A DNA stretch of 64,000 bases from contig NC_087072.1 in the NCBI RefSeq assembly GCF_026151205.1, forward strand, positions 9,855,669 through 9,919,668, read 5' to 3'. This DNA comes from Bolinopsis microptera. Lineage: Eukaryota; Ctenophora; Tentaculata; Lobata; Bolinopsidae. Position 1 is the first letter of the stretch; the number at the start of each line of letters is the position of its first letter. This document shows, piece by piece, positions 22,318-56,000 of this stretch. A program made the translations under genes and the position numbers. Under the pieces are notes generated by a model. That model worked only from the letters and a program-made list of their open reading frames with translations, was not told the origin of the DNA and did not search any database.

Positions 22318-25012
22318 ACTTGTTGCGCAAAGCAGCTAACTTAAATCCTTGCGCAACCAATTTACCTAAAAGTTCGGTAACACAATTTTTGAAACCCTTA
22401 AGTGTCGAATTAATTCTGGCTAATCGTACTAATTGAGAAATAAATATTCCATAAGACAAATTATTTGGAACGTTTCCATCCAAAAAAGGATAAGATATAA
22501 CTTTAAAATTATAATCTTATCTTTTATCATATAACGTCACTCTAAACTTTCCTTGATAAATACTAATGTTTAAGTCTAGATAGCAACATTTACGAGCCGA
22601 AATATTAGTATTATTTATTATCATTTCCTTAGGATAAATATCTTCTAATACATTCTGTAATAAATTGAAATCATCAAAAACTATCAAATCATCTTGATAA
22701 CGAAATGTGTCTTTTAATCTTTTTAGATTTTCTGTATCCTCTTGTTCTATCAAAAGTTTAATATATTTATATTCGTAAACATGTAAATAAACATTAGCTA
22801 TTTGTGGTGCTGCATTGGTACCCATTGGTATTCCAATAACTTGTCTATAAATTTGACCCTGATAAGTAACATAAGAATTATCAATCAAATAATTAAGACA
22901 TTCCAAAAGTGTATCTTTAGAAAAATGAACTTTATTTTTACTAACATTATCAGAGAAATAGGCCTTCTTAGTATAAAGATTAGGAATAATATAAGACTTA
23001 TCTTTAAAATCAAATACTCTTTCTACAAACATACGAAGATTATCCTTCAATTGAATATGAGGAATAGATGTATATAAAGTTGAAACATCATAAGTACTGA
23101 CAGACTTTAAACCTTTCTGGGTATTATCATAACTAAGAAAATCTAAGATAGGCTCATTATTATCAATAACAAAATAATCATTTCTAACGTGAAATTTATT
23201 ATCATATATAGATTTATTTTTAGCTGAGTGAAGCATAGATTTAATACAAATGCTAAGATAGACTGATAATTGTTGTAAACTACTTCCACTACCAGACGTT
23301 ATATATCTAACTCCGACTGGCTTTTTATGCTGTTTTGGTGTAATATATAAATAAGGTAATTTGCTATTATCTTCATCAAATTTAATACGATGTTTAAGTA
23401 AGAATGCTTTATGCTCATTAATTATATCATCTTCTGAACGATTAACTTTAGTAAATGTATTCGATGATAATTCCTTTTCAATCATACTAATATAGAACTT
23501 TTTACAAACAATAGTAATATTATTTTTGGCTTTATCGGTAGGAACCAATACAAAATCTTTATGAAGCTCATCTAAATCTGCTAAGACTTCAACATCTGAT
23601 AATACTGAATAATAGGGATATGGTTTAATAGCTCCTTGCAGTTGAATTTTCACTTGCTCTATGATTAGTGTTTTCCACTCTTGAAACTCTTCTATAGGTT
23701 TATGCCACAAATTAGACAATTTATCGCAATAGCTTTTGAGTGCCGTCTTTACTGATTTTAAAGCTTTTTCAGTACATGGTTTAGCTTGGTCTCTATAATT
23801 TAATCCCTTCATTAGGAGATTACGAAGTTTATCATTACTGATCATTGATAGCTCTCCTGTAATGACATGTTTATGAGTAGGGTCTGTATAACGACTTGAT
23901 GCACAATTACATTTCAATGTTTCTGAGTCAATGTTAGCTTCATTATATACTTTTTTGTAGTTAAGTACTTTAGATCTGATTGTTGGAGGGTATTTGTAGG
24001 ACAATGTAGGTTGCTGATGATACTTTGACTTGAATGGTGCAGCTTTAGTAACTTGTTCCATTTTAAATATCTTTCGAAAATCAATATACTCGACAAATTT
24101 ATTAACATAATTAACTACAATAAAAGAATTTGATTTACTATTATTCTTACACGCTAAACCCATTCTTGTAAGGTAAAACCATGATAAATCTTTAACTAAG
24201 AGAATTTTATGAAATCTATATGTCGTTATACTACTATTAAAATTATTAATATAAGATATAGCTTTAATATATACTAACTTAAGTTGTTTCTTTTTAAGAT
24301 TACATAGATTAGTACGAATATCATGCATATCAATCATATTATCATCATCCAGCAAATCTTCATAAAATACATCGATATCAAATTCTTGTCTTTCACTTAC
24401 TATATTACTAATGAATCTACCTCCACGTGAATGTCTATTTATTTTAACTATATCGAACTGACTATAAATCGTTGTTTTAGAGTTCATCACAATATTGCAG
24501 GCATCTAGTATGTTCTTCTTTTTAACACGAACGTTGAGACCATATGGGAAAACTGTATTTAACTGCAACATACAAGCTTCTTCAATGTCTTCTCTTTCTT
24601 TCAATGTAGTATTATTAGGTAAGAGTTTAATCGGCATGATAGCCATGTTTTCAGTGCTATGAATTTTAGTGAAGTGATCACGAAGTATTTTGCAGCCTCC
24701 ACCACGTTTTATAGTAGATTTATGTTGGCTTATTCTAGAAGCAATTGAATTGATCGTGTGCCCAATGTATTGATATTTACAATCTTTATGCAAGCATTTT
24801 ATCAAGTAGATGCAATTCTTCGTTTGACATGATCCATTAAAGTCAATGAGGAAAGTAGAGTTTGTAGTGCTATTAGTGTAGAAGTTGTCAAAAGAAAGGC
24901 GGTTTAAGCATGTAACGCATGATTTTCTATCACATGGTACTATGTTAAAGGTTTCAAGAGATTCTGGATCATTTATACTTTGATGATCATTACAAGATTG
25001 TTCCGACTTCAT
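22214..25012 (-). pseudogene. GIY-YIG endonuclease plus reverse transcriptase of the Penelope-like element, one in-frame stop
   Basis: Would copy element RNA into the genome by target-primed reverse transcription. The ATG at 25012 opens MKSEQSC. A cysteine cluster (C-D-R-K-S-C-V-T-C, about residues 27-35) precedes the GIY-YIG nuclease, residues ~60-160, seen as C-I-Y-L-I-K-C and Q-Y-I-G-H-T, then an H-rich segment. The reverse transcriptase occupies roughly residues 480-930: PTDKAKNNI, YITPKQHKKP, DVSTLYTSIPH, GIPMGTNAAP and the catalytic Y-Q-D-D box followed by L-I-V-F. The thumb (NVPNNLSYGIFISQLVRLAR, FVKFYKSR) lies after the stop. A TAA at 22519-22517 interrupts the frame after LYDKR; the same frame resumes at once and stays open to 22214. 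There is no C-terminal nuclease. Without the TAA the protein would be about 932 residues. Confidence 0.88.
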
Positions 25013-27035: not shown

Positions 27036-30000
27036 ATGCTTGCTGGAGACCAACTCATTCTAGAAGAAGATTACGATGAGAACTATGAGCCCACTGAGCA
27101 TGAGATAAAGGAATATGCTACTGACATTTTAGGCTTGTCACTTGCTAGTGATGCTGAATTTATTTGGATAGCTCGACAGGGAATCAAAGAGCCATTGCCT
27201 CCCGAGTGGAAACCTATCCAAGATGTATCTGGTGATATCTATTATTTTAATTTCGAAAATGGCCAAAGTATGTGGGATCACCCATGTGATGAATACTACA
27301 GAGGACTTTATCTGCAAGAAAAGAAAAAGAAAAAGGAGCGTCTTGTAAAAGATAAATCAAGAGATAGATCAAAAAGTAATTCTATATCAGAGAGTAATAA
27401 AGAATCAAAATCTAATCAATCAAGATCTAAGAATTGCAGTAAATCTGAGAGTACTGCAAAGCTTCCAAAGCTTGCTCCTCTTGGAAAGCTGGCTCCAATA
27501 TCAGCAGGCAAATCATCAAAAATTTCAGAAAATGATTTGTCTGAAGCGTCAAAAAGTTTTAATGCCAAAGATTCTTCTGAAGCACTGGTCTCAGAGAAAA
27601 CACCTATGATCCCGTCAACCTCAGTAACTCTCGACATTAACAAGTCAAGACCTACAGGTCGTATGGCTCTTGCCTATGAAGATTCTGAAAGCTCCAGTTT
27701 CAATGAGAAAGTTGGTTTAAAGAGGCAGCAGGAAAAGTCTAAAGTTTTGTCAAAGGTTGAAGATGAAAGTGATGACGACATAGATTTTGGACTGGACCTC
27801 CCCAAAAGCATGCAGAATGATCGAGCAGGTTCCCCTCCAAACATGTTGAAAGACTCTTTAAACCTCACTTCCTTCCCAGTGTCAAGTCCCCGAATAAAAA
27901 CTGACAGCGACTCAAGAAGTCAAGTGACACACAAAGAAGCAATCTCATCCTACAGGGGGAATTTAGAGGCTGAACTAGCCAAAGAAAAGCAAAAGTTGAA
28001 AAATAAGTATGATGGTGAGATGGAAAGATTGAAGCAAGAGAAGGAGGAAGAATTTGCAAGAGAGAAACAAAAGATAGCTAGTGATAAAGAGGCTAGAATT
28101 CTTAAATTGAGGCGTGATGCTGAACAAGATATCGAGAAAGAACAAAGCCAAAGCATTGACAAAAAAGCCAAAGAGTTGGAATCATTGAAAGATGTAATTA
28201 CCTCTGAACTTGGTCAAGAGAAAGATAACCTTATAGAAATGAAAGATTTTGAGATAAGGAGGATCAAAAAAGAACATGACGAGGAAATCGATAGACTCAA
28301 AGATGACCTTGAAGACGAGTTGAACAAAATGAAACGAAGCAATGAGTCGAAACTCTCTGAAGAAATTGAAAAGCGTCGTCAAGAAATAGAGCAAGACAAC
28401 CAAGAAAGTTTCGGTGAGTTCAAGAGAAAGCAAAACGACGACTTGGAAGAGAAGAAATCTGCTCTGAGGATGGAGAATGAGGATAAGATAAGGCGATTCA
28501 AGCAAAGTCAACAACTGGAGATTGATAACGAGCTGACTGACCTGAAAAGAAGTTTAACACAAAAGTTGAATCGTGAAAAGGAATCTCTAGAACAAGATCA
28601 TCAGCTAGAATTGTCGAACTTTAGGCAGAAAGTCGAATTAGAACAAAAGTCCAAAATGTCTCAAATGGAACAGGAAACACTCGACTCCAAAATGAAAATC
28701 TTAAACCTCGACATGGAAAAAATGCTTGAACAGAAAAAAGCTGACATTGCATTAAACCATAAACAAGCCTCGATGAAACTTGAACACAGCCTTGAGGAAG
28801 AACTAGAGGAACAACGTGATGCTCTAAAGAAGAGAAATAATGCCGAGCTCAATAATCTGGAACATGAGCTCACCAAAAGAAAGGACAAGGTTGTGAAGGA
28901 TCAAGAAGAGCTGCTGTCTGACTTACAATCTGAATTTTCTGCCCAGAAAAGAGCAATTCAAGAAGAGCACAACGACCAGCTAAAATATTTACGAGACAGA
29001 AACAAAAGTGAACTTGATATGTTGAATCTTGAGAAGACAAGTGCTGATGAGGATCTTAAAACTGCAACTGCTAGAGTCCAAAACACGAGGGATCGATATG
29101 AGAAAGAGGTTCAGGAAATCAAGAAGATGGAGAAAGATTTGAAAGACCGCAGTGATCAGCTCACTGAACAAATCAGATCTGTAGAACTAAGTCAAAAAGA
29201 ATTTGAAGCTGAGAAGAGCATCAAAATGACCACAGAACTGTTGGAGCTGCAAAATCAAATAAAAGTCATGCATGAGGAGATTGAGAAGTTAATGAACGAA
29301 AAACGAGGAGTCACCGAGAAATTGAATGAGTCGATCAAAAGACAAAACACTGAGGAAAAACATGCCTCTGAATTTAAAAATCTTTCTGAAGCAGAGATGT
29401 CTGTATTAAAGAGTAAAAAGGTTGATAGTGAGGCCGAAATAAAGCGTTTGGAAGCACACAAACATGATCTCCAGATGGAGGTAAAGGAGTTGAGGCATCA
29501 GGTAGAACTTTTGAAACTTGATGTGAAGCATGGTAAGACAAATGGTCACGAGAAAACAAATGGTAAGTCCAATACTCCGAGGAAAACAATACCGCCATGT
29601 TCAAGTGACGATTCCGATTCAATTGAGCTCATAAAACTGAACGGTAAAACCAAGATTCCCTCCAATTTCCCAAGTCCATTAAGTGACACAGACGAAGAAA
29701 ACCTTGAAGACCTGAAACAAGTGTCTCGGCGTCTGAAAGATGTCAGAGTAAACTCTCCTCTAAGTCCAGAGGAGAAGAAATTTGCGACTGCTAAGGTCAG
29801 GAAAGAACGCCACAAGCTGAACCTTGATTACAAAAAGAAAGAATTCCGTCGTCTCAAGAAAGTTCATGCATCGAAAACTGCCACTTATCTTCAAACTCTG
29901 GAAAATCACATGCTTGAATCTTCACCAGAAACAACTGATTTCATTGAAAATATCAATGCCGAGATCGGTAACGATGCTAAACTTCTTGAGAAGAAACTTC

Positions 30001-30704
30001 AGAAGTTAAAGATGGATCAGGTGTCGTACAGAAACCGTCTCCACAAGATAAAGTACGAGAACAATATAGAGTATGATGACAGTGACACTTCAGTTTCAGA
30101 TGATTTCCTGAGGCATAGTAAACCCCTCAAGAAATCTAAACGTGGCCGCTCCGCCAGTCCTGGATCCCAGACAAGGGTTTTAAAATCACTTTCAAAGATA
30201 AACGGTGAACTATCATCTGTTTTAGACATGTTTCAAACTAACTTGACCAGCAAAGATATGAATGATACGACGGTAGCGCAACCCATTTATGCCTCTACTC
30301 CGATGACCAAAGTCGAGCCTAAATGGACACAGGCTCGACATCAAGCAAATGATATGTTGGCACAAAAGTGGAAAACATATTTTGGTTCAGAAGGCATGAC
30401 GATATCGACCGAGAAATCACAAATGTGTTTACCTGTACAGTACAACTATGATCCCAAAGAACATGTCCAGCAGTTTAAAAAGGAGCAGCTATGTTGGCTT
30501 TCAAAGAACAAATCAACTACAGACTTGCTGGCGAGTCACTCAGAATGGCTCAGGGACTTTAAAGAACAAGTTGGAATGTCATCAGGTAATTTCCCAAACT
30601 ACAACAGAAGTGGAAATATGAGCGACTCAAATAAATTCAATAACTTGTTCAACGGATCACCCAACCCACCAGGCTCCCCCAACAGAGATCAACCGTGGAG
30701 ATGA
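27036..30704 (+). CDS. CEP164: Centrosomal protein 164 homologue, uninterrupted 1222-codon frame
   Basis: Distal-appendage (transition fibre) protein of the mother centriole, needed to dock vesicles and recruit TTBK2 when a cilium forms. The first ~90 residues match CEP164 closely: [18 protein letters not shown] at 4-21, then [11 protein letters not shown] domain lies at ~54-84 ([26 protein letters not shown]; key tryptophans 58 and 80, proline 83). A Lys/Ser-rich low-complexity region follows (~95-300), with SPR and SPP sites. A very long, charged coiled coil runs from about 305 to 850, rich in E, K, L and Q. The C-terminal part (~860-1222) has [21 protein letters not shown] and a second predicted coiled segment. 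Human CEP164 is 1460 residues and encoded by many exons; here no intron is needed. The start ATG matches the position where human begins GDQLVLEEDYDE, a few residues shorter. Confidence 0.92.
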
Positions 30705-45668: not shown

Positions 45669-46709
45669 TTACCATTTCATATTAATAGTTACAGTGTAGA
45701 CTGTAGATAGCATTTTAGGTAGGTAGTTGTTATATCGTTTACAATTTAGATATATTATAATTTCACGGACAGTATTGTACTAGGAATAATTAGTATGTTG
45801 TAGTTTATCATGTTACAATTTACACAGTCGAGAAAGTTTATGTAATTGTATGTTGGCTTTGCAGCCTTGAGAACCTTTATGATTTTATTATTATGAGCAT
45901 TTTCTGCTGGGATCAGGATAAATTCCATTTTAAATAGTTCAGTTTTTAAGCAATTATTGATTAAACGATGTATTATTAAAGCAAAGTGTCTCATTTGTCA
46001 CGTATATCTGAAGTCAGATCCATTATTATGCGAACACTGGTGGTCGTCCTGGTAAGATTTTCGTAACTCAATTTAATTCCTGTATTCCTATTAATACTGT
46101 TTTTCTATCCATGGATTTACTTGGATAACTAAATTGTAGATGCATTATCGGACCCACAATCGGGAATGTTTGAGTGAAGCCCTGACTTGCTCAATTAAAG
46201 GATCTCGTGTATTGGTGAGATGAAAATAACTAAGCAAGAAACCTGTCTTCCTATAGCCTAACTGTTTAAATATGTTTGAGCTGCCGGATGTTAACAAGTA
46301 GCAGAGTGAATCGTAGATTTCAAATCTTCGACTCGACCAGTCGACCTAATATTTAAAACTCACGTTGCGCGCGCGGCGCGGCGAGTTAGGAGTCATTTTG
46401 CGCAGATTGATCAAAGTTTAATTCTTGTGCGTCCTCCATCAATATTGAAAATTTCCGTCGTCTGTCCCATGACTCAGCACTGGCTCGAGGGAACTCTTAC
46501 ACCCGTGATCAGTGATCATACTACCTATCTGGCCCCTTAGCCCATAGAATATAACGAGGCATCGAATGTTCAACGAAAACAGATCATTTCAACATACTGC
46601 AATTTCTTCGACATTATACTCATATATTCATAAGATGAATGTTTATATTACACATCAACCAACGACTCGTGAGTCGACATCAAAAGCAGGGCTAAGTAAA
46701 TATTATAAA
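45669..46709. other. Intergenic stretch after the small membrane protein
   Basis: Nothing beyond probable 3' UTR and a short CpG-rich patch (GCGCGCGCGGCGCGGCG at about 46367-46383) was recognised. It ends at the TTAA that borders the polypurine element. Confidence 0.35.
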
Positions 46710-46713
46710 TTAA

Positions 46714-49420
46714 TGGGGGGGGTGTCATGTCCGTCTATGTCCGCCTATGTCCTGTCCTTTTTGGATTCTATGAGACAACGGACGTGTTTTTTGGGACACG
46801 GACGGACACAGACGGACATTGGCGGACTCGGACGGACATTGGCGGACTCGGACGGACATTTGCGGACCCGGACGGACATTGGCGGACTCGGACGGACATT
46901 GGTGGATATTAGCTCAGGAGGAGGAGGACTCAGGAGGAGGACTGAGGAGGACTGAGAAGGAGGAGGACTGAAGAGTACTGAAGAGTACTGAGGAGGATGG
47001 CTGAGGAGGATGGCTGAGGAGGATGACTGAGGAGGATGACTGAGAGGGAGGAGGAGGATCAGGAAGACCCAGGAGGAGGAGGAGGAGGAGGACCCAGAAG
47101 GAGGACCTCGGAGGAGGAGGAGGAGAACTGAGGAGGCAGGATGACTCAGGAGGAGGAGGACTCAGGAGGATGACTGAGGAGGACTGAGGAGGATGGCTGA
47201 GGAGGATGGCTGAGGAGGATGACTGAGAGGGAGGAGGAGGAGGAAGAGGAGGAAGAGGACTGAGGAGGAGGAGAAGGACTGAGGAGGAGAAGGAGGACCC
47301 AGGAGGAGGGGGACCCAGGAGGAGGAGGACCCAGGAGGAGGGGGACCCAGGAGGAGGAGGACCCAGGAGGAGGACCCAGGAAAAGGCCAAAGGAGGAGGA
47401 GGAGGACTGGGGAGGAGGAGGACTGTTGAGGACTGATAAGGAAAACTGAGGACGAGGAGGAGGAGTAGGAGGAGGACTAAGGAGGGGAGGAGGAAGAGGA
47501 CTGGGGAGGATCAGGAAGACCCAGGAGGAGGACCCAGAAGGAGGAGGACCCAGGAGGACCCAGGAGGAGGAGGAGGACTGAGGAGGACTGCGGAGGAGGA
47601 CTGACGATGACTGAGAAGGAGGAGGACTGAGGAGTACTGAGGAGGATGGCTGAGGAGGATGACTGAGTCACTGAGAAGGAGGAGGAGGACTCAGGAGGAG
47701 GACTCAGGAGGAAGAGGAGGAGGAGGACTTAGGAGAAATGAGAAGGAGGACTCAGGAGAACTGAGGAGGAGGAGGAGGACTAAATAGGAGGAGGAGGAGA
47801 AGGAGGGGGACTGGGAGAGGACTGAGGAGGAGGAGGACTGATGAGAAGGATGAGGAGGAGGACTGAGGAGGAGGACTGAGGACCGAGGGGGAAGAGGAGG
47901 AGGATGAAGAGGAGGAGGAGGACTGAGGAGGAGGACTGAGGAGGACTGAGGAGGATGGCTGAGGAGGATGACTGAGAGGGAAGAGGAGGAGGAGGAGGAG
48001 GAGGACTGAGGAGGACTGCGGAGGAGGACTGACGATGACTGAGAAGGAGGAGGACTGAGGAGTACTGAGGAGGATGGCTGAGGAGGATGACTGAGAGGGA
48101 GGAGGAGGAGGACTCAGGAGGAGGACTCAGGAGGAAGAGGAGGAGGAGGACTTAGGAGAAATGAGAAGGAGGACTCAGGAGAACTGAGGAGGAGGAGGAG
48201 GAGGAGGACTAAATAGGGGGAGGAGAAGGAGGGGGACTGGGAGAGGACTGAGGAGGAGGAGGACTGATGAGACTCAGGAGGAGGAGGACTCAGGAGGACT
48301 GAGAAGGAGGACTGACGATGACTGAGAAGGAGGAGGACTGAGGAGTACTGAGGAAGATGGCTGAGGAGGATAGCTGAGGAGGATGGCTGAGGAGGATGAC
48401 TAAGAGGGAGGAGGAGGAGGACTTAGGAGGAGGACTCAGGAGGAAGAGGAGGAGGAGGACTCAGGAGGAGGACTTAGGAGAAATGAGAAGGAGGACTGAG
48501 GAGAACTGAGGAGGAGGAGGAGGAGGAGGAGGACTGAATAGGAGGAGGAGAAGGAGGGGGACTGGGAGAGGACTGAGGAGGAGGAGGACTGATGAGAAGG
48601 ATGCAGATGAGGAGGAGGACTGAGGAGGAGGACTGAGGACCGAGGAGGAAGAGGAGGAGGATGAAGAGGAAGAGGAGGACTGAGGAGGAGGACTGAGGAG
48701 GAGGACTGAGGAGGACTGAGGAGGATGGCTGAGGAAGATGACTGAGAGGGAAGAGGAAGAGGAGGACTGAGGAGGAGGAGGAGGAGGACTGAATAGGAGG
48801 AGGACTGAATAGGAGGAGGAGGAGGGGGACTGGGGGAGGACTGAGGAGGAGGATGGAGGACTGAGGATAAGGATGAGGAGGAGGACTGAGGAGGACTGAG
48901 GACTGAGGAGGAAGAGGAGGAGGATGAAGAAGTGGAGGAGGACCCAGGAGGAGGACTGAGGAGGAAGAGGAGGACTGGGTAGGAGGAGGACTGATGAGGA
49001 GGACTGAGGACGAGGAGGACGAGGAGGAGGAGTAGGAGGAGGACTGAGGAGGGGAGGAGGAAGAGGACTGAGGAAGATCAGGAAGACCCAGGAGGAGGAG
49101 GAAGAGTAGGAGGAGGAAGCATCTAAATGTTATTTCCATTTTTGTCCGTTTTTGTCCGCTCTATTTTTGTCCTTTTTGAAAATATAGGGTACCGAACGGA
49201 CAAAAAACATGATCCCCCTATAACAGCAAAAATTGAACATTTTATTTAGCAATTTAGGTGTCCATTAATGTCCGCTAATGTCCGTCTATGTCCGCCTATG
49301 TCCGTCTATGTCCGCCTATGTCCGCCTATGTCCGCCTATGTCCGCCTATGTCCGCCTATGTCCTGTCCTTTTTGGATTCTATGAGACAAGCGGACATAGA
49401 CGGACGTGACACCCCCCCCA
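46714..49420. mobile_element. 2.7-kb TIR element bordered by TTAA and filled with polypurine satellite
   Basis: The left end reads T plus eight G then TGTCATGTCCGTCTATG (46714 onward). The right end is its reverse complement with one difference over 29 bases (TGTCACGTCC), ending in eight C and A at 49420. TTAA lies outside both ends (46710-46713 and 49421-49424); because A and T flank it, ATTAAT is an equally valid reading. Inside each end are tandem oligomers: ~20-bp units with CGGACATTGGCGGACTCGGA at 46798-46905, and 10-bp TCCGCCTATG units at 49258-49360. A shared block TCCTGTCCTTTTTGGATTCT follows on each side in direct orientation. No transposase is encoded. TTAA targets are used by piggyBac and Kolobok elements; the family was not identified. 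Confidence 0.8.
46912..49105 (+). repeat. GGA-rich polypurine satellite (~2.2 kb)
   Basis: Nearly all plus-strand bases are A or G, built from GAGGAGGAGGACT and GAGGATGGCTGAGGAGGATG words with higher-order repeats. Blocks of several hundred bases recur, for example around 47570-47830 and 47998-48260. Long frames read on the minus strand (Ser/Pro/Leu-rich) are artefacts of stop-poor composition. Confidence 0.95.
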
Positions 49421-49425
49421 TTAAT

Positions 49426-50085: not shown

Positions 50086-53000
50086 TCAAATTTCTGATCG
50101 CCTGACTTTGACAGAGTCTAGTATTTTACTTGGAATGTCAACAATGCACACTCCCACACTACTTCGTCTCATACTCATACTGGCGACTGATATCCACTGT
50201 CCCGCTACGAGGTCGTATCTGAAACAAGCTTTTGTGAGTTTCAAGATATTCAAAAAATAAGGCCATTATCATAATATGTTTTATCATAATATGATACCTA
50301 TGATCATATATTATGGTCATTCGCAGTTATGGTCATTTGCAGTTATCTGAATCCGTGCCGACAATTATTTCAATTTCTACACAGCATAATACTTCGGACA
50401 ATTTGGTACTTTTTCATTATTCTCAGACTCATCTAACGATTCTCAGGAAATGTGAGATTTTAAAATATAAAAAATCAAAGAACAAAGTGCCGGTGGCAAA
50501 GAAAAGTGGCGGTGGAAAAACATACTTTTCGCTGAATCGTATTTCTAAGTAAACTCTAATATAAACCTCCCAGAAAGCTATCCATATTTCCCACATAAAT
50601 TGCTCTATATTAGAAAAGCCCTTCACCACACGATGAAACAACTGTCTCGAGTATATCCATTACATCACCCTCAGCTTCTAACGTTCCATGCTACCATGCT
50701 TACTAAGTTTCAAGCAATAAATCTCTGTCAGCCGTCCCTAATTTCTAAATTAATAATCTTTAGGAGAGCCTGTTTTTACTTGATTCATTATTTCCAAGTG
50801 CAACATGAGCGCAGTATCAATATGACACTGGGGCAGAACTTCTTGCACCTTATTACTTCACTTAGGGTATGAATTGAAGCTGTGATTTGTCAGTGCTATT
50901 TAATGTGGCCTCTAATTTCCAGAATCTCTGACGCAAGTCCCCTTGATAATTTAGTCTTCCAACAGATCTGACGTAAGCATCACATGCATGATTTCATAGA
51001 CGCCCTATTAGAGAACATAATGAAACCAAAAATAAAACTAAAAGTGCAAACATCTGTGAATTGAGAAAATAAAGGAAAAAAACTAACTTTTCGACTGTAT
51101 TGAGAGAGCTGCATCCGTCGTTCCCGCCCACAGCGTAGAGCGCGCCGTCCACCACAGCAATATCAACTGCACTGCGAGACGTGTGCATTGGCTCCAACCA
51201 CCTCCACTTTCCTTCTCGAGTATCGTATCTGAAAAAAGGAGGAGTAAAAAAATCCACCTTAAATAAATGAATAATGAGGGTTACACCTGATACATTTCAT
51301 ATTATAAATAAGTGATAACAAACTAAGCAATCAAAACATCATGTTTTAAACAAACCTCTCCACAGAACTGAGACTAGTACAGCCATCATTACCTCCCACC
51401 ACATACACACATGAGTCGAGTGCTATAACACCGGCACCTGAGCGCTGGGAGTGCATCTGATTCACTGTATACCTGAGATATATACAGTCGTTAGTTTTTA
51501 GAATATACAGTCGTAAGCTTTAAGAATATATCTAATGAGCTGTAAATTATTTAACTGTGAAGCAAGATTACATCCCAGCTGCGCTGCAGTGTCAGGGGTT
51601 TAAGGGTCCCTGGGTTGGAGCCAGATAGATAGATGCCTATAGAGTTAGAATAATTTCGGAAATCCTTACCATTTTTCCCTGTCTGGATGGAACATTTCCA
51701 CAGTACTAAGATGAGAAGTTCCGTCAAAGCCGCCCACTGCGTAGATCTGCTTATCAGAGGTGACTGCGCGTACGTAGCGCCGCTTTGTTGTCATTACTGG
51801 TGCCGCCATCCACACCTGACAGAACTTAGGTTCAGTTTGGTTTTCAGTGTAACTCAGCGAATAAATTATATATCCTGAACCGTTATCTGTTTATATGTCC
51901 ATATTTTTAATGTGAGATAATAAATAAATACCAAATAATGGATATGTAATTTATCATATCATATTCTGGATGTGACTAATTTAATTCCACTCTTGCTAAA
52001 GTTGAGCACCTTTTGGAAAACCGTCCAACGGCAATATTAGATGATTATGGCGATGCCCACCATTCGATCTCAAACTTTTCAAAAGTATTCTAACTTTATT
52101 TTCAACAATTTGTCGAACATTCAGAGTTCTCCTCTCTTGTAGTTAAAACACTAATCAGAGAGGAGTAAACTACAACAATTCATTAGCATGATCTATATAT
52201 TCTCCCTGGAACAATCTTATATATATAGTAACTCAATGAGGTTGTCTCATTAGCCAAGGGGGAAGGATGAGAGGGTAAACTAGAGACTCAAGAGAGGACA
52301 AAGGATGTAGCTTACACATTATGGCGGCCTCTATTACCTCTCGTATGCAGATAGCAGGCACCGGCGATGGTGATCTATTGTTAGTTTGTTAAATTATAAT
52401 GATCCATGTTCCCGCACAAACTCGGGGTATGGATAGAGCTCCTCTTTTTCACGTACGAGTTACACTAACAATAACACGTTCTAGCACACACACCATTACA
52501 CGGACATGCTAGCTACCATATCAATATCCACTACCCTCTCTACTTCTAGATATAATTATAATAACTCACATACAGACTCTATGCTATTAGTGCTGCTACA
52601 GTCAGACTATGAGACTGTAGCACTGTGCTATTATTACTGCTAAAGTCAGTTGTAGCACTGTGCTATTATTGCTGCTAAAGTCAGTTGTAGCACTGTGCTA
52701 TTATTGCTGCTAAAGTCAGTTGTAGCACTGTGCTATTATTGCTGCTAAAGTCAGTTGTAGCACTGTGCTATTATTGCTGCTAAAGTCAGTTGTAGCACTG
52801 TGCTATTATTGCTGCTAAAGTCAGTTGTAGCACTGTGCTATTATTGCTGCTAAAGTCAGTTGTAGCACTGTGTTATTATTGCTGCTAAAGTCAGTTGTAG
52901 CACTGTGCTATTATTGCTGCTAAAGTCAGTTGTAGCACTGTGCTATTATTGCTGCTAAAGTCAGTTGTAGCACTGTGCTATTATTGCTGCTAAAGTCAGT

Positions 53001-56000
53001 TGTAGCACTGTGTTATTATTGCTGCTAAAGTCAGTTGTAGCACTGTGCTATTATTGCTGCTAAAGTCAGTTGTAGCACTGTGCTATTATTGCTGCTAAAG
53101 TCAGTTGTAGCACTGTGCTATTATTGCTGCTAAAGTCAGTTGTAGCACTGTGCTATTATTGCTGCTAAAGTCAGTTGTAGCACTGTGCTATTATTGCTGC
53201 TAAAGTCAGTTGTAGCACTGTGCTATTATTGCTGCTAAAGTCAGTTGTAGCACTGTGCTATTATTGCTGCTAAAGTCAGTTGTAGCACTGTGCTATTATT
53301 GCTGCTAAAGTCAGTTGTAGCACTGTGCTATTACACAGACTGTTTGCGCTCCAGTGTGTAACTCACTTCTGCTGCAGCTCTAATGTTATACACTGGACAC
53401 ACTGAGACGCAAAGTCCAATGAGTTTTAAAATAATATCTAGCTTGTATTGTACTGGTAACATAAAATTATCAGTATCAGCCGCAAGCCAGCAGCTGCATG
53501 CTCTCTGAAACCAGCGGTGCGGCTAATGGAGATACACATAATCTATTATTGGGGCTCTAGAAGTATTGGCTTATTGAACCGCTAAAATCAGGGTCTGGAC
53601 TCACTAGACATAATCACTCGCAAGAGACTTGATACGAGGAGGTTGGGGCCTAATCCTCCGTTAGAGGATGCTGATGCTAACAGAATATTTTCACAAAACA
53701 CGCGAGCACACGTGATAATGGATATCATGTTGAGTGTTGACGCTGCTGCTGGGATGATATCTTGATCTGCGCTGGTAGTTATAGTCGAGTAACCATCGTA
53801 TCTCATTACACTTCATGATGAGTTCACACAGGGACATTACCACTGTGATTACAGTTCACTACATTACACTACTTAAATCATACGGGTAATAAGATCAACA
53901 TGGCCCCAGGACCAGGGAGGGAGAGTACATGGTCAGATGCGCTCACTGGTTTACAAGCGGCTGGTTTGTGCGTCATTGGTGGTGCAGTGGTGCAATCATT
54001 GTTGATTGTACAAATGCAGGTCTCTTTGGATAGCATTAAATTTCATTCTGTTTAAGAGGGCAATAATCGAGTTGTGTTCAAAATTGCCTCGAGATTAGGG
54101 AATTACAAATGAAATAATACATAGTGATAAATATCGATACTGATAAGACGGAATTGAAGACCATCATATCACCAACTTGTAAGCTGATAGGATAATTTCT
54201 GTGCCCACTGAAAAGCTGCACAGATGAGCGGGTGAATTTGAATTATGAGCTACCTTAATACCGTGTGGTTTAAACAGTGCAGTGAAAACAAGTTATGTTT
54301 AACAGTACACGTGCTGTAAAAGGCAATAAGGTGAATTGAGTAGTGTAATAACAAGATAATATTAACAGTTTATGTTTAAAGAACAGGGCTGTTATAGGAT
54401 TATGTGGCAATGTCAATATAAAGAGAAGAAACTTCTAATAAACCTACCTAATGCTAATATACAGACTGGCTAAAGAATGTAAAATGAAGCGACAAATAGC
54501 AAAAAATGTAGCAAAAAGGAACCCACCTCCATATAAGGATCGTATCTCTCCATGTAGTCCAGACAAGTGTATCCATCATATCCTCCCAAAGCGTACATTA
54601 TACCATCCAGCTCTGTTATCCCTACACAACTCCTCCTGATTGTCATGGAGGGGGCTGCTGTCCACTCGTTCACCTGAAATGGAACCGTCGTCAGTAAAAT
54701 ACAAACACACAGTTTTTATTGTTGATGTGAACACATTGCGTTCACATTTAAGAAAACGGTCAACCAAACTTCTTAAATTTCATTTTATATGGGGTATTTT
54801 TCCAACAGTGTCCATTTTATGTGCCCAGTCCCTTCCATTCTATCAATTCTGAAACTAATCTAATCTTATGGTGCTTATGTATGTAACTTCTTTTAGTCCT
54901 CTTGTTCTGATCCGTAACTTAAATCTGCTTTTGTGTTTTTTGTTGCTGTGTACGTGTTTTTATGCATGTATTTATTTTCTCAAGCTCGTTTCTTCGCATG
55001 TTTTATCGAGACAAGCATGACAAGTGGCAGCTCAGTTCCTATTTTGAAACAGTAGTAAAAAAACAGCTAGTTCACATCTTTGGCACGCCGACTATCAATT
55101 ATGTATCATCACGTTTTTCAGATCTGATCATGCAGATTGATCGATAAAATATAGTTTTGTCCAATTACTTTTAAAACTTTTCGATCGATACACATGTTAA
55201 GTTTTGAAGAGCTCAAACAATATGTCAGGATGCAACTGCCATGTATTTATTCGCTTTCAACTAACGTACAAATACATGCATAATTTTAAGGAAGCTTCTA
55301 GAATGATTGTTGGTCACTTCACTGAAAGACTTTGATCTTACACTTTACTATTAGATAAACATTATTAAGTTCCAGATAATAATGATGAATGAGAACAACA
55401 AGCATTATATGTAATGAAGGTCGTGTAGAGATATTTATATTAATTACAGCGTTGGCACACGCTGCGTTCTAAATATTATATGGGTAAGATTTTAGGACAA
55501 TTTCAACAAATCATTCGTGATATTGTGATTCTTTGTAAGATTTACGAGTAAAATGACTTGTTTTATTGTGTTTTAGAAAAAAATAGGAAGGATAAGATCC
55601 TGATTCTGGCAGGTCTGCAAAATTCTATTTCCTTGTAATTCTTGCAAATTCTATTTCCTTGTACCACTCATTCTTCTTTAACGTTAATCGAATCTGGTGA
55701 TGACTCTAATAGAATTAGGAATATGTACATGACCCATCAGGATAAGAGTTTTTCAGAATTGGTTGTAAAGAGACTAACGAGCTTGAACATGAAATCTTGT
55801 TATTTGATCAATAATCAGTTTAGAAAGGAAATCTAGACGATCTGAAAGCACATACAAAAGCTGAATTTGATTCATTCATCACTTAGTCTTATCCTGTAAA
55901 GTGTAATTTTATTTCGTGAAAGTTTTCGGTCATCGACCTAAAACTTCCTACACAAACAATGAACATCACCTTATTATAGTTTGGAAACTTCCTGAATCTA

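Follow-up and report, generated by a model that had tools for sequence, protein, structure and literature searches.

Several mobile elements are known to carry satellites or other tandem repeats with them. Among the groups to which they belong, Tc1/mariner elements duplicate TA on insertion, and Helentrons have neither terminal inverted repeats nor target-site duplications. The Xenopus Tc1/mariner MITE miDNA4 is non-autonomous, with inverted repeats and an internal satellite of variable copy number, and no nested second element figures in the available parts of its descriptions (PMC12628747, PMC9659126). Lepidopteran MITEs with (GTCY)n microsatellites likewise spread a tandem repeat, according to the accessible portion of PMC9659126. 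Excerpts of PMC7492417 and PMC9659126 describe non-autonomous Helentrons of the Pacific oyster that disperse satellite-like arrays; the Tetris foldback element of Drosophila virilis has repeat-rich ends and a linked satellite whose source is given, in extracts of PMC9659126 and PMC12628747, as the terminal inverted repeat; and Xstir is, in partial text of the same two sources (PMC12628747, PMC9659126), another case of a satellite or microsatellite carried by a mobile element.

Here we describe a family of this kind in Bolinopsis microptera, starting from one copy in a window of 64,000 nucleotides, by which we mean the whole stretch of DNA analysed. The family makes 6-bp duplications rather than the TA duplication expected of miDNA4 from its Tc1/mariner origin, and it appears to hold a nested second element, which miDNA4 as described does not. 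It carries a 2-kb purine satellite where the lepidopteran MITEs carry a microsatellite, has both the terminal inverted repeats and the target duplications that Helentrons lack, and bears its satellite internally, in contrast to Tetris. We consider it very probable that the family is a cut-and-paste DNA transposon of composite build, apparently non-autonomous, with 6-bp, mostly TA-centred duplications, and that it originated by nesting. No described family with these ends was found in the literature on transposons and satellites, searched by text and not by sequence. As far as that literature was searched the kind is known, a satellite-carrying MITE, and the family, its duplication and its nesting history are new. 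The family bears on the open question of how satellites get scattered along chromosome arms.

Structure and copies of the element

The element spans positions 46715-49419 of the window (2,705 bp) and is closed at each side by a 29-bp inverted repeat, with a single mismatch between the two and eight G outermost, just as a first-pass annotation of this DNA had described them; its limits of 46714 and 49420 were right except for one base at each side (Table 1). The annotation's inner 10-bp and 20-bp arrays and 2.2-kb satellite were likewise found in place by Tandem Repeats Finder. Calling the satellite purine-only was too strong, the window copy being 83.2% purine with 8.6% C and 8.1% T; its periods are 3, 13 and 16, with 62-68% matches.

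Table 1. Features of the element and its borders, in window positions
Feature	Positions	Strand	Remark
Target-site duplication, left copy, ATTAAT	46709-46714	+	Same 6 bases at 49420-49425
Left terminal inverted repeat, G8 start	46715-46743	+	836 such ends genome-wide
Left terminal core TGTCCTGTCCTTTTTGGATTCTATGAGACAA	46748-46778	+	Recurs at the right end in the same orientation; direct alignment score 104
Left subterminal array, 20-bp CGGAC units	46794-46906	+	Tandem Repeats Finder
Purine-rich satellite, GAGGAGGACTGAG-like, 83% purine	46916-49117	+	Tandem Repeats Finder and base composition
Buried type T right end: GTCCG units, core TTTTTGAAAATATAGGGTACC, then CATGATCCCCC	49119-49218	+	Alignment with the L094 end
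TATAAC, putative right half of the nested type T element's duplication	49219-49224	+	Satellite-free relatives read AATATAACAGCAAAAATTG
Right subterminal array, 10-bp ATGTCCGCCT units	49268-49363	+	Tandem Repeats Finder
Right terminal core, repeat of the left one in direct orientation	49349-49379	+	Sequence and alignment
Right terminal inverted repeat, C8 finish	49391-49419	-	Sequence read
Target-site duplication, right copy, ATTAAT	49420-49425	+	6-bp direct repeat

The end sequence was searched for in the whole assembly (264.65 Mb, 232 contigs), in which the window belongs to contig C1. At up to three mismatches it matched 836 times (413 forward and 423 reverse), far from being confined to the window, and the reversed control pattern gave 0+0 matches, so the end is repeated beyond chance. 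From these 836 ends we infer about 400 copies of the element. The first 100 ends listed are exact matches from C1 and part of C2; on C1, 64 of the 76 listed exact ends pair into 32 inward-facing elements, the shortest 1,773 and the longest 6,020 bp, with a median of 2,607. The multiple copies and inward-facing pairs bear out the original claim that this is a transposon.

For closer comparison we used the window copy together with 20 of the 39 other listed left-end matches (n = 21), which were taken as the best matches to the left end and are therefore no random sample. Copies lacking TTAA at their borders do occur, against the expectation of the first-pass annotation, but interiors are not unrelated: a purine track is present in 21/21, the left end being there by selection, and a 34-base satellite word in 20/21, three times in the window copy. 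Right ends differ by 2.3% on average and 5.9% at most (n = 18), so the family looks young.

Probable origin by nesting

The core TGTCCTGTCCTTTTTGGATTCTATGAGACAA of the main ends, compared left with right, scores 104 in direct and 39 in inverted orientation, against a shuffle maximum of 24. GTCCG units stand on one side of this core and CGGAC units on the other, and hence an inverted repeat arises. The G-run, the 29-bp inverted repeat, the GTCCG-unit arrays and the direct core would together form the ends that a transposase binds. Two further end types were met. Type S, with ends GGGGTGACATGTCTCCAATGTC, repeats the layout of the main ends around TTTTTTGAAAAGATAGGGTGC; its left and right ends score 93 in direct and 84 in inverted alignment, the shuffle maximum being 26. 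Type T is represented by CATGATCCCC with core TTTTTGAAAATATAGGGTACC; in L094 it has a G-run of its own, and there it aligns with the end buried in the window element at a score of 155. Types S and T are thus kin by sequence: either type T copy aligns with the type S left end at 43, above shuffle maxima of 24 and 26. Between main ends and type S the scores are 19-27, with shuffle maxima of 24-26. The main left end aligns with the buried type T end at 40 and with the separate one of L094 at only 22 (shuffle maximum 23 in both cases), and the former score may come from exchange inside the composite. Main ends resemble S and T in layout, in the G-run and, so far as it was tested, in a 6-bp duplication; their kinship by sequence appears weak.

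Two relatives without satellite bear directly on how the composite was built. One lies at about C4:11178140-11179234, with ACTATT on both sides (by eye), the other at about C2:20643388-20644703, with a GATATA duplication found by script. Both have the same left end and array as the satellite copies, then several hundred bp of other sequence, then a similar right part. These relatives read AATATAACAGCAAAAATTG where the satellite copies have satellite, a type T end and then TATAACAGCAAAAATTG. The ancestral element, probably about 1.1-1.3 kb long and free of satellite, would have received a nested element with G-run ends and the purine satellite; the left end of the latter would then have been lost and its right end left buried close to that of the composite, and the composite would have multiplied to its roughly 400 copies by means of a transposase supplied in trans. 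We favour nesting followed by spread because of the satellite-free relatives and because other elements with G-run ends carry the same satellite. The left half of the nested element's duplication is not preserved in clean form, and the case for nesting therefore rests on the right junction, on the type T end found elsewhere and on the satellite-free relatives. In L021, L023 and L042 an interior of the satellite-free form is mixed with satellite, so modules have been exchanged as well. One genome seems to show the steps together, with satellite-free elements, other carriers of the satellite and a young composite that has brought it to hundreds of sites, leaving clean duplications of the target.

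The interior of the satellite-free form was also considered as a possible remnant of a transposase, and this was rejected. Part of it matches a stretch of C12 at 68% (E 5.7e-19); that stretch takes in the final 57 bases of a frame with a helicase-like P-loop domain and extends past them. Since the matched stretch mostly follows the frame, a captured piece of other DNA is the likelier source, judged by this alignment.

A wider proposal is that these ends define an undescribed superfamily, with poly-G termini, 6-bp TA-centred duplications and arms around a direct core, in which at least three families (GTCCGCCTAT-, GTCTCC- and GTCCGTTTTT-type ends) pass one purine satellite among themselves by mutual nesting, some relatives holding a second satellite of about 250 bp. 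We put this forward tentatively, as a doubtful possibility; if true, satellites would be the shared cargo of the group.

Target-site duplication

By script, with the ends set at the G/C-runs, 16 of the 25 end pairs proved to have an exact 6-bp direct repeat, five had one of 5 bp and four had none. Among 600 wrong pairings of flanks, six matched over 6 bp, and none of the 25 true pairs did so over 7, 8 or 9 bp. Six of the 25 pairs gain a 6-bp repeat once a merged base or an interrupted run is allowed: L004, L009, L017 and L028 have 5 bp that become 6 if one base merged with the G/C-run counts, and A_C4 and L027 have 6 bp past an interrupted run (by eye). Three pairs do not fit, namely L062 (5 bp), L069 (five of six bases) and L070 (none).

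With these three left out, and L043 and one type S element added by eye, a list of 24 duplications was obtained. TA forms the centre in 18/24, against 0.084 in flanking DNA, and a pyrimidine-purine step does so in 22/24, against 0.239. ATTAAC, TATAAT, GTCATT, TCTGTA and TACATC are among the duplications of other copies. The TTAA that the first-pass annotation read as the border of the window copy is the middle of its 6-bp repeat, and TTAA lies inside just five of the 24. Terminal inverted repeats in many copies and a duplication of fixed length, 6 bp, are MITE-like features.

The type S element at C1:10423483-10426110 holds purine satellite and sits within a tandem array, with GATACT on each side. 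The sequence expected before its insertion occurs 11 times in the adjoining array. The array unit holds GATACT twice, however, so this empty site is suggestive backing for a 6-bp duplication and no proof by itself.

Candidate sources of the transposase

No transposase frame was recognised in the copies read, with frames judged by eye and a few of them run against Pfam. Pattern searches of the genome for related ends gave 11 with another inner continuation, nine with divergent cores and 67 matches of an older type with TGACA (control 5+7), 16 of the last being one tandem array on C7. This array (G000:C7:19717671-19718164) consists of 16 copies of GGGTGACATGTCCCCC, mostly 25-34 bp apart, that resemble the ends of older relatives. 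An autonomous partner was not found at 34 of the 67 older-type places, read about 1.25 kb inward, nor at any of the nine divergent-core places, which were read through seven further pieces and L043. Older relatives were recovered, e.g., L043, L062, L069 and L070, of about 0.4-1.0 kb. The sharply defined set of ends provides a handle for finding the transposase.

Several smaller observations were made along the way. Remnants of roughly 50 bp were met in L060, L061 and L082; in these, little separates the two G-run ends, and the remnant in L060 has GGACTGA on both sides. Near an older-type end, L072 and L079 have reading frames that we take to be Sushi/CCP-like and that are possibly captured or neighbouring exons. 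A frame in L025 was rejected as the family's transposase: it belongs to a distinct element nested within the satellite (L025:1175-2009; G000:C1:7187374-7188208) with ends of its own, GGCAGTATCGAGATAGCCCGACC, and an 8-bp repeat, CCTCAGCC, on each side. We assume that this 99-aa frame resembles the start of a Merlin/IS1595-type transposase; no Pfam match to it passed the cut-off.

Buster hATs have a target preference that the TA centre recalls, and hAT ends usually start with CA. A non-autonomous family of hAT6 type, moved by a transposase from a hAT lineage with 6-bp duplications, is possible, if unlikely. hAT domains are abundant in this genome, with 150 scored hAT dimerisation domain matches among 366 candidates and several of them in open frames of more than 500 aa. 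Against such a source, the ends of the family start with a G-run, and, as a weak point, none of the 150 hAT places was seen inside the copies read when compared by eye with the listed end positions (100 of the 836 ends); no link between the abundant domains and these ends was found. By description, both hAT6 families (excerpt of PMC12730594) and IS3EU (excerpt of PMC10045372) make target duplications of 6 bp, as found here.

We hold it to be very unlikely that an integrase of IS3EU or Polinton type supplies transposition. A duplication of 6 bp is usual for both groups in the available text of PMC10045372, and the family agrees with them in this; the same partial source gives complete IS3EU families as always having TA..TA termini, where the ends here start with a G-run. 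No polymerase or integrase genes of Polintons were recognised by eye in the copies read, and the element may be a short non-autonomous Polinton derivative. Dada elements also make 6-bp duplications, and are described, in the portion of PMC3706591 available, as lacking terminal inverted repeats and inserting in small RNA genes. The present family has 29-bp inverted repeats, and no Rfam match was obtained in the window.

Association of the satellite with the element

Genome-wide, the 34-base satellite word was found at 837 places. Clusters were built from the 100 of these that were listed, which lie on C1 and within the initial 3.7 Mb of C2. Among the resulting 45 clusters, an exact main end lies within 5 kb on both sides of 33, on one side of five and on neither side of seven; the two-sided score at random positions is 0.0036 (0.36%). 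The nearest ends face inward in 33/33 of the two-sided clusters. Of the two possibilities raised by the first-pass annotation, that a mobile element spreads the satellite and that a satellite expanded inside a MITE, the former is supported by these 33 of 45 listed clusters.

An ordinary dispersed satellite, flanked by chance by ends that are separate insertions, could account for the seven listed clusters that lack an exact main end nearby and for the five one-sided ones. We nevertheless regard it as extremely improbable, given the 33 clusters set between two inward-facing ends, the single exact 6-bp repeat common to both ends at 16/25 pairs and the satellite junctions common between copies, the left one to 16 of 21 first-set copies and the right one to 18 of 21, some pieces stopping before the latter. 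The mobilisation of an internal array with its element, as in miDNA4, is seen here in the same clusters and junctions. The seven clusters without an exact main end nearby were read in part. A main-type end, with a change, was seen in L088 alone; type S ends were found in L087 and L091, and a type T right end beside the satellite in L086/L094 and in L089; L090 (with L095) has a truncated type T region and L085 (with L096) a rearranged one. Among the 45 listed clusters no array was clearly free of G-run elements or their pieces, L085 and L090 being ambiguous. It is scarcely credible that a TTAA-type element, a MITE of the piggyBac or Kolobok group, acquired the satellite: TTAA adjoins both ends in the window copy and is inside the five duplications mentioned above, but the repeated unit is 6 bp and 19/24 duplications are without the TTAA that defines piggyBac and Kolobok insertions, which makes both unlikely and a piggyBac- or Kolobok-type partner, as first suggested, probably the wrong one to seek.

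Within the composite transposon favoured here, the satellite varies in length. Measured from its left junction to the first right junction, it spans 596 to 3,189 bp (n = 14 copies with both), and in L001 and L003 blocks of about 0.8-0.9 kb, type T end included, are repeated, so arrays changed length after the founder existed. Growth and shrinkage in individual copies might proceed via slippage, unequal exchange or gap repair. The family could serve as a test case for length change of a tandem array between transposition events.

A different tandem repeat was seen in L026 (1373-3501), which has the same right end as the main element; its unit is 247-255 bp and is present in at least 8.5 copies. 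An element of the older type, L047:1859-2416, has 2.2 copies of a repeat that resembles it by eye.

Other features of the window

Elsewhere in the window, an 831-aa frame with a GIY-YIG domain (Pfam) at 22517-25012 on the minus strand is perhaps a Penelope-like element. An uninterrupted frame of 1,222 aa at 27036-30704 on the plus strand has a WW domain (Pfam) and is presumably CEP164-like. At 52616-53333, Tandem Repeats Finder reports a 35-bp tandem repeat of 20.5 copies with a 99% match.
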